Source: Herbiconiux sp. SALV-R1
GTDB lineage: Bacteria > Actinomycetota > Actinomycetes > Actinomycetales > Microbacteriaceae
Assembly: GCF_013113715.1 (NCBI RefSeq)
Contig: NZ_CP053344.1
Span: forward strand, 248,001-312,000
Length of the DNA: 64,000 bases
Reading direction: 5' to 3'
Part shown: in pieces, positions 5,672 to 7,724 of the stretch
Layout: every line of letters begins with the position of its first letter
Numbering within the stretch: position 1 is the first letter of the stretch
Notes under the pieces: generated by a model
What the model was told of the DNA's origin: nothing
Databases searched by the model: none
The model's input: the letters and a program-made list of their open reading frames with translations, nothing else
Program-made: the position numbers and the translations under genes

Positions 5672-5700
5672 TAGCACCCGGCTCCGGCCGGTCTGAAGAG

Positions 5701-5788
5701 CAGAACCACGAACCCGAGCGATCGGGCGACACCCCAGGTGGAGGCCTGGGCACCGGTTCTGTCCGAAACCTCCACTCATCATCAGGAG
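5701..5788 (+). promoter_or_regulatory. Structured RNA leader of rpsM (three-way junction with predicted pseudoknot)
   Basis: Between rpmJ and rpsM the transcript can form three perfect helices. P1 pairs CAGAACC (5701-5707) with GGTTCTG (5755-5761). P2 pairs CCCGA with TCGGG (5713-5726) and closes with a GCGA loop, which is a GNRA tetraloop. P3 pairs CCCAGG with CCTGGG (5733-5750) and has loop TGGAGG. That loop (5739-5744) is fully complementary to CCTCCA at 5769-5774, giving a possible pseudoknot. The same CTCC (5770-5773) can instead pair with GGAG of the rpsM ribosome-binding site (5785-5788). This suggests a translational switch; the function is inferred. Confidence 0.55.
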
Positions 5789-5797
5789 ATAGCCACA

Positions 5798-6175
5798 ATG
5801 GCACGTCTAGCAGGAGTTGACATCCCCCGCGACAAGCGCGTGGAAGTCGCACTCACCTACATCTACGGGGTCGGCCGCACGCGCGCGCTGAAGACCCTCG
5901 CCGACACCGAGATCTCGGGCGACATCCGCGTGAAGGATCTCACCGACGACCAGCTCGTCGCGCTCCGCGACTACATCGAGGGCAACTACAAGGTGGAGGG
6001 TGACCTCCGCCGTGAGGTCGCCGCCGACATCCGCCGCAAGGTCGAGATCGGCTCCTACGAGGGCGTTCGCCACCGCAAGGGCCTCCCGGTTCGCGGTCAG
6101 CGCACCAAGACCAACGCTCGTACCCGCAAGGGCCCGAAGCGCACCGTCGCCGGCAAGAAGAAGGCCGGCCGCTAA
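5798..6175 (+). CDS. rpsM: 30S ribosomal protein S13
   Basis: Head protein of the small subunit that contacts 16S rRNA, the P-site tRNA and L5. It has 125 residues. It begins [30 protein letters not shown], a highly conserved start (here cited only as a family match). It ends with the basic tail [21 protein letters not shown]. The ATG at 5798 follows AGGAG at 5784-5788. The frame is open 60 bases further upstream, but that part is the structured leader and has no homology. The gene is probably controlled by that leader, as S13 heads the S4-regulated alpha operon in enteric bacteria. Confidence 0.97.
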
Positions 6176-6206: not shown

Positions 6207-6605
6207 ATGGCAACCCCCAAGTCGGCCGTTCGCAAGCCGCGCAAGAAAGAGAAGAAGAACGTCGCCGTGGGCCAGGCCCACATCAAGTCGACCTTCAACA
6301 ACACCATCGTGTCGATCACCGACACCACCGGTGCCGTCATCAGCTGGGCCTCCTCGGGTGGCGTCGGCTTCAAGGGCTCGCGCAAGTCCACCCCGTTCGC
6401 CGCGCAGCTGGCCGCCGAGTCGGCAGCCCGCCAGGCGCAGGAGCACGGCATGAAGAAGGTCGACGTCTTCGTCAAGGGCCCGGGCTCGGGTCGCGAGACC
6501 GCGATCCGCTCGCTGCAGGCCGCGGGCCTCGAGGTCGGCTCGATCAACGACGTGACCCCGCAGGCGCACAACGGGTGCCGCCCGCCCAAGCGTCGCCGCG
6601 TGTGA
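6207..6605 (+). CDS. rpsK: 30S ribosomal protein S11
   Basis: Platform protein of the 30S subunit. It has 132 residues: a lysine-rich N-terminus ([18 protein letters not shown]), then [29 protein letters not shown] and the C-terminal [11 protein letters not shown] signature. The ribosome-binding site is CAGGAGAG, and it lies 31 bases after rpsM. The usual downstream rpsD (S4) is absent; a strong hairpin follows instead and rpoA comes next. The same arrangement is known in Streptomyces, where rpsD lies elsewhere. Confidence 0.97.
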
Positions 6606-6734: not shown

Positions 6735-7724
6735 GTGCTCATTGCACAGCGCCCCACCCTCACCGAGGAGAACATCTCCGAGTTCCGCTCGCGGTTCGTC
6801 ATCGAGCCGCTCGAGCCCGGCTTCGGCTACACCCTCGGCAACTCCCTCCGCCGCACCCTGCTCTCGTCGATCCCCGGCGCCGCTGTCACGAGCATCCGCA
6901 TCGACGGCGTGCTGCACGAGTTCTCCACCATCCCCGGTGTGAAGGAAGACGTCACCGAGATCATCCTCAACGTGAAGGGTCTCGTCGTCTCCTCCGAGCA
7001 CGACGAGCCGATCACCGCGTACCTGCGCAAGCACGCGTCGGGCGAGGTCACGGCAGCCGACATCTCGGCTCCCGCCGGTGTCGAGATCCACAACCCCGAG
7101 CTGGTCATCGCGACCCTCAATGACAAGGCGAAGTTCGAGCTCGAGCTCATCATCGAGCGCGGCCGCGGCTACGTCTCGGCGACCCAGAACCGCAGCGAGT
7201 TCTCGGAGGCCGGTCAGATTCCGATCGACTCGATCTACTCGCCCGTGCTCAAGGTCACCTACCGCGTCGAGGCCACCCGTGCCGGCGAGCGCACCGACTT
7301 CGACCGCCTCGTGGTCGACGTCGAGACCAAGCCCGCCATCACCCCGCGCGACGCCATCGCCTCGGCCGGCCGCACCCTCACCGAGCTGTTCGGTCTGGCG
7401 CGCGAGCTCAACACAGCCGCCGAGGGCATCGAGATCGGCCCCGCGCCGGTCGACGCCGTGCTCTCGTCGGAGCTGTCGGTTCCGATCGAAGACCTCGACC
7501 TCTCGGTGCGCTCGTACAACTGCCTGAAGCGCGAGGGGATCAACACGGTCTCCGAGCTCGTGGCACTCAGCGAGACGCAGCTCATGAACATCCGCAACTT
7601 CGGTCAGAAGTCGGTCGACGAGGTGAAGGACAAGCTCGTCGAGCTCGGCCTCTCGCTGAAAGACACCGTTCCCGGTTTCGACGGCGCCCACTTCTACGGC
7701 GGCTACGACGACGAGAACGTCTGA
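6735..7724 (+). CDS. rpoA: DNA-directed RNA polymerase subunit alpha
   Basis: Scaffold subunit of RNA polymerase. It has 329 residues. The N-terminal assembly domain includes [20 protein letters not shown] and [21 protein letters not shown] flexible acidic linker follows. The C-terminal domain starts near residue 245 ([19 protein letters not shown], then [15 protein letters not shown]) and contacts UP-element DNA and activators. GTG start at 6735 after AAAGGA. It pairs with rplQ downstream, 56 bases away. Confidence 0.97.

Follow-up and report, generated by a model that had tools for sequence, protein, structure and literature searches.

The gap between rpmJ and rpsM in Herbiconiux sp. SALV-R1 contains a structured RNA leader that we predict, with a probability of about 0.8, to be a ribosomal-protein leader of the rpsM-rpsK-(rpsD)-rpoA-rplQ mRNA that acts on translation. 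Comparative sequence analysis indicates that its fold is clearly genuine, beyond chance, and that the leader is probably a cis-acting element ancestral in the class Actinomycetes.

In the window (the whole 64,000-nt stretch of DNA that was analysed), reading frames and homologues gave the gene order rpmJ, rpsM, rpsK, rpoA, rplQ, all on the + strand, with a gap of 126 nt between rpmJ and rpsM. The DNA resembles that of Microbacteriaceae, and the closest named match to its rpsM is from a Herbiconiux MAG, at 99% identity. The leader is preceded by rpmJ (L36; 5555..5671), placed by its reading frame and by the tblastn order in relatives, and followed first by rpsM (S13; 5798..6175), placed by its reading frame and homologues and starting with ATG at 5798; rpsK (S11; 6207..6605), rpoA (6735..7724) and rplQ (L17; 7781..8374) were assigned from their reading frames and the gene order in relatives. 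The single PF00163 (S4) match in the 4.52-Mb genome is rpsD at G000:C1:1705308-1705934, 1.45 Mb off, in agreement with the original prediction that rpsD lies outside the operon. The leader, also on the + strand, begins with the 5′ strand of helix P1, GCAGAACC (5700..5707), whose partner is GGTTCTGT (5755..5762), together giving seven Watson-Crick pairs and one G-U. Within P1 stand hairpin P2 (CCCGA-GCGA-TCGGG, 5713..5726), with five pairs and a GNRA loop, the junction segment CGACAC (5727..5732) and hairpin P3 (CCCAGG-TGGAGG-CCTGGG, 5733..5750), with six pairs. The P3 loop TGGAGG (5739..5744) is complementary to CCTCCA (5769..5774), and these are the 5′ and 3′ strands of a pseudoknot that ends 9 nt before the Shine-Dalgarno (SD) core of rpsM, AGGAG (5784..5788), itself recognized by position and by complementarity to the 16S 3′ end. 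The three helices of 7, 5 and 6 pairs and the pseudoknot complementarity were thus exactly where they had been predicted, with the G-U of P1 as an extra pair.

To assess the fold by comparison, 80 Micrococcales loci were retrieved via rpsM and their rpmJ-rpsM gaps were read; 34 had a clear P1, and from these 21 relatives (one of them, L064, titled only as an actinomycete MAG) were aligned with the window by sequence-only MAFFT (alignment A1). Pair counts were taken on MAFFT alignments, since helix parsers misplaced P1 or P3 in some loci. Over the 22 rows and 24 pairs of A1, 95.8% of cells were paired against 81.3% in shuffled alignments, double changes occurred at 13 of the 24 pairs and the covariation measure was 0.440 compared with 0.143; none of 500 shuffles reached any of the five measures, and registers slid along the alignment paired only 32-54%. 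This signal came mostly from P1 (98.9% of cells paired; double changes at 5/8 pairs), P2 (89.8%; 4/4 counted pairs) and P3 (100%; 3/6 pairs), and RNAalifold, when the structure was not supplied, recovered the same three helices in the window's form of the leader. The length and loop of P2 varied among the relatives, its GNRA loop not being general, and GACAC of the junction segment (5728-5732) was invariant in all 22 rows. The pseudoknot helix was nearly constant in A1, with a double change at one of six pairs, three pairs that never vary and an outermost pair broken in 11 of 21 rows; being so little varied in close relatives, it draws its covariation support from a class-wide alignment, A3. 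Compensatory changes among homologues, whose absence had been named as the refutation of the original prediction, were abundant in A1, in A3 and in a third alignment, A4; all three were made by sequence-only MAFFT from partly overlapping rows, and in each none of 500 shuffles reached any measure.

The distribution of the leader was determined by two routes. A covariance model built from A1 (R1) scored at least 47 bits in 56 of 81 sources, 22 of those being the model-building rows, and the remaining 25 scored below 24 bits or matched in part only or away from the leader; many of these have an additional helix between P3 and P1. Over 296 class genomes R1 matched 39 at E<=0.01, including all 14 from the window's family; of 32 matches that could be placed, 31 lie immediately 5′ of rpsM (the exception being G284), and seven more were unplaced. 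The window genome has one strong copy (91.9 bits); its next match reaches 21.4 bits and lies elsewhere, so that the rpsD that moved away is not preceded by a copy of its own. As the second route, a class sample of 60 genomes from 32 family groups (the window's family besides) was anchored on rpsM, and reading of the gaps placed a P3 hairpin with pseudoknot before rpsM in 59 of the 60. This figure rests on reading because a relaxed finder may accept a hairpin other than P3: the strict rule found 50 of 60 class gaps (75 of 1,200 shuffled gaps) and the relaxed rule 52 of 60 (168 of 600 shuffles), and the corresponding Micrococcales counts were 50 of 80 (45 of 1,600) and 61 of 80 (180 of 800), the misses of the relaxed rule there being mostly 5-pair pseudoknots. 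Bulges or mismatches in stem or pseudoknot were seen in L150, L179, L180, L189, L196, L197 and L205, and the one genome without the leader, a draft (L163, G009), has an rpmJ-rpsM gap of only 81 nt and no P3 hairpin.

The class-wide alignment A3 holds 64 rows that begin at P3 (the window, four Micrococcales loci and 59 class genomes, L163 being omitted because it has no P3), five of them anchored by hand and one, L200, with a misaligned 3′ strand. In P3 and the pseudoknot together 95.1% of its cells were paired, against 85.7% in shuffles, and double changes were found at 11 of 13 pairs: at 6/6 in P3, of which 99.0% of cells were paired, and at 5/7 in the pseudoknot. Loops as different as CACCGGG, UCAAAGG, CACGAGG and CCAGAGG are each matched by their own 3′ strand. 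The pseudoknot usually lies near the SD, a position that is not required, since in L172 and L181 its strand ends 60 and 72 nt 5′ of the start codon; L181 has an additional hairpin, GTCAGCGAC...GTCGCTGAC, that separates the pseudoknot strand from the SD.

Alignment A4 comprises 14 leaders from families with an operonic rpsD, picked for a common P1-P2 pattern. From these RNAalifold independently yielded a four-way junction, P1-P4, of 21 pairs, 15 with double changes; over 32 named pairs including the pseudoknot, 84.5% of cells were paired compared with 71.3% in shuffles, and the pseudoknot alone gave 56.1%, a low value that results from the misplacement of its strand in part of the rows. Thus the structured leader with junction and pseudoknot stood as predicted, while the three-way junction proved to be the form of the window's family (Microbacteriaceae), which is best read, from the comparison, as a variant that lost P4. 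Outside the class, in the same phylum, the rpmJ-rpsM gap measures 1-47 nt in 19 of 20 genomes, the other (L272) having a repetitive gap of 129 nt, and these short gaps suggest that the leader arose in the class Actinomycetes. A conserved block, CAACT[GC]AA[TCA]A, was also seen in 31 of the 80 and 7 of the 60 gaps (1 of 1,600 and 1 of 1,200 shuffles), at a median of 120 and 142 nt 5′ of the start codon, respectively; it is absent from the window and is perhaps a start or processing site.

Autogenous leaders of ribosomal-protein operons usually take the form of a junction with a pseudoknot beside the ribosome-binding site (RBS). As is general for ribosomal-protein leaders, the element is consistently found before a ribosomal-protein gene and its structure is backed by covariation. 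The comparison shows that P1, P2 and P3, with P4 in most of the class, form the junction and that the P3 loop makes a pseudoknot with a downstream strand. The predicted mechanism is as follows: an excess of a ribosomal protein encoded by the operon would bind the junction and stabilize the pseudoknot; the 30S subunit would then be unable to start, or would be trapped in an inactive complex; and rpsM would be repressed, with the following cistrons repressed too through coupling. Control is placed at translation because no terminator follows the leader: between 5100 and 6000 on the + strand there was neither a terminator nor a sigma-70-like promoter, and attenuation by a terminator was rejected on this ground. 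That the leader can be expected in the mRNA is consistent with data from Mycobacterium tuberculosis, in which, according to the part of the source available, the rpsM 5′ untranslated region (UTR) of 216 nt is transcribed and strongly expressed; the same source aligns it with the 5′ UTR of rpoA (PMC3207917). Of the ribosomal-protein-binding leader in the original prediction, the conserved leader before rpsM is borne out, and the binding of a protein is what we infer.

Among known systems the nearest is the Alpha_RBS of Escherichia coli (RF00140), which binds S4 and resembles the present leader in standing before rpsM of the same operon with a pseudoknot near the RBS. The window reached only 16.9 bits with this model, below the gathering score of 38, many of the aligned letters being rpsM coding sequence, and none of 16 class-wide loci matched it at E<=0.5; membership was rejected, in line with the original view that the site is distinct from that of E. 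coli. The leaders differ furthermore in that the pseudoknot is here carried by a three- or four-way junction, in that the operon of the window organism has no rpsD (a gene that is operonic in 45 other class genomes) and in that the E. coli pseudoknot comprises the RBS, as described in the accessible text of PMC10931766, whereas here it stands before the SD. The S4 leaders of Clostridia and Fusobacteriales also lie 5′ of rpsM-rpsK-rpsD-rpoA-rplQ, with S4 assigned by precedent in the available part of the source (PMC7247131); they belong to other phyla, and the present leader gave no Rfam match apart from the weak Alpha_RBS one in the window and has no conserved GUAA. The Firmicutes rpsD leader, which binds S4 in Bacillus subtilis, is likewise the leader of a ribosomal-protein gene, from a genome in which, as in the Microbacteriaceae, the alpha operon does not contain rpsD, but it precedes rpsD itself and has no pseudoknot (PMC10931766, accessible text), whereas the present leader lies before rpsM and has one. 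It carries GUAA (PMC7247131, available part), which was found in 0 of 22 A1, 2 of 14 A4 and 2 of 64 A3 rows.

The L17-Actino-Proteobacteria leader RF03132 shares operon and phylum with the present element, but it is a separate motif of 56 positions before rplQ, with no match before rpsM. It served as a positive control in the 16 class-wide loci, none of which had an Rfam leader at the rpsM site at E<=0.5; two of the 16 carried RF03132 before rplQ (L173:2835-2891 and L193:781-832). The mycobacterial S15 leader of rpsO is another actinobacterial leader, whose pseudoknot is strictly required for repression according to the part of the report available (PMC8470358); it has another gene and another ligand and is likened here by description only. 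No Rfam 15 family reached its gathering score in the window, and we found no description of this leader in the literature searched, which was mostly the main text of freely accessible articles (among them PMC7247131, PMC11109978, PMC6429828, PMC2864571, PMC8388888, PMC3207917, PMC8470358 and PMC10931766). By these comparisons the leader appears to be a new fold among ribosomal-protein leaders.

Which protein would bind the leader was approached through the history of rpsD. S4 is present somewhere in all 60 class genomes, and of the 59 in which its position could be read, 45 have rpsD within the operon. In a tree built from S13, S11 and RpoA with 69 rows (59 genomes of the class plus 10 of the 80 Micrococcales loci; L205 was kept out, its contig ending before the rpsD position), the operonic state of rpsD changes at least four times, three of these changes being forced by well-supported branches. 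The leader was kept in all 24 rows without an operonic rpsD, compared with 44 of 45 rows with one. That the leader outlasts operonic rpsD weakens S4 as the ligand and favours S13 or S11, to which we give a chance approaching even. S13 and S11 are not known as primary binders of 16S rRNA, which counts against them.

S4 as the ligand, acting from its new locus and repressing rpsM in trans, is possible and ranks slightly behind S13 or S11. It is the proven ligand at E. coli rpsM, where it acts by entrapment with the pseudoknot (PMC10931766, accessible text), and the assigned ligand of the Clostridia and Fusobacteriales leaders of the same gene (PMC7247131, available part), and every class genome encodes it, most of them within the operon. 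Against this, the leader was retained without operonic rpsD over three to four changes, and the 14 class genomes that lack an operonic rpsD retain an S4 of a divergent type, with PF00163 scores of 68-82 bits compared with 96-123 for operonic S4; the S4 of the window genome, which is of this type, is 38-46% identical to operonic S4s. GUAA, by which the Firmicutes S4 leader imitates 16S rRNA, is not conserved here, being absent from 22/22 (A1), 12/14 (A4) and 62/64 (A3, counted from P3) leaders with the last 25 nt excluded. A ligand other than S4, S13 and S11 is unlikely. Both types of S4 occur together in five of the 60 genomes, from four families (G001; G014 and G114; G139; G175), and these genomes are likely an intermediate of rpsD relocation.

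Also counting against S4 at rpsM, the non-operonic rpsD of the Microbacteriaceae has its own, different structured leader, seen in the window genome (L207, upstream of G000:C1:1705934 on the minus strand) and in L208-L236. It has a variable hairpin with double changes at 5/5 pairs in alignment A5 (23 aligned rows of the 30 loci; L223 and L234 were omitted for length, and L214, L220, L226, L231 and L232 were missed by the pattern), and in its loop, for example UGUAGCC, AGCC is complementary to an upstream GGCU, a pattern present in 25 of the 30 loci. GGCU and AGCC are invariant in 23/23 aligned rows, and hence this pairing is itself without covariation support; no Rfam match was found among the 11 of these loci that were searched. 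A different element, GUACGUCCGUGAGNCGCGA, stands at rpsD of L220, L226, L231 and L232. Elsewhere, a palindrome like TTAGGTTAGGCTCACCTAA was observed 5′ of the divergent rpsD in L251, L252, L253 and L255; we take it to resemble the box of an iron regulator (DtxR/IdeR), and metal control of the S4 paralogue is possible. As a tentative reading of these histories, a class-old leader with S13 or S11, not S4, as its ligand may balance the alpha operon where rpsD has left, the rpsD of the Microbacteriaceae having gained a separate leader.

Another explanation is that the structure has no ribosomal protein as its ligand and serves translation or mRNA processing directly, through 30S docking, stability or cleavage in the rpmJ-rpsM gap. 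Structured leaders can work without a ligand, and the conserved block found in part of the gaps may represent a processing or start site; the combination of junction and pseudoknot is, in general, typical of autogenous leaders, however, and the unpaired junction bases that are invariant in the 22 rows suggest recognition, which makes a function without a ligand improbable.

The original prediction further held that the downstream strand pairs exclusively either with the P3 loop or with the SD, so that CCUCC would alternate between an on state and an off state. In the window CTCC and GGAG of the SD are indeed complementary (four pairs; duplex about -6.7 kcal/mol), and RNAfold draws an SD hairpin when the pseudoknot is disallowed; the pseudoknot itself has -8.6 kcal/mol with six pairs and -11.3 kcal/mol with a seventh pair borrowed from P3. 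The strand and the SD region have a mean of 3.9 complementary bases across the 64 rows, a complementarity to be expected because a GGAGG loop requires a CCUCC strand. In the 23 of 64 A3 rows without a GGAGG loop, the pseudoknot had 5.74 pairs with a row's own strand compared with 3.75 with the strands of other species, whereas the match of strand and SD was no better with the own SD (3.83) than with those of others (4.12), and the SD hairpin had double changes at 0 of 3 predicted pairs. The pseudoknot thus covaries and the pairing with the SD does not; SD sequestration was rejected as a conserved mechanism, and we regard the alternation as quite improbable, even more so than a function without a ligand.

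That the complementarity arose by chance, or from a sequence constraint acting on the DNA, has next to no probability: single-sequence folding energy lies within that of shuffles (z -0.37; 65/200 at least as stable) and was dropped as evidence, but the systematic compensatory changes in A1, A3 and A4 and the RNAalifold results refute this explanation, and a coding constraint is excluded by the variable length of P2.

What is known of ribosomal-protein feedback is built on E. coli and the Bacilli. The present leader spans 32 sampled family groups in addition to that of the window, one genome lacking it, and it would be a frequent unannotated RNA of actinomycete genomes. Furthermore, it has outlived operonic rpsD on at least three to four occasions, and genomes with rpsD inside and outside the operon thereby provide a natural experiment on the ligand.
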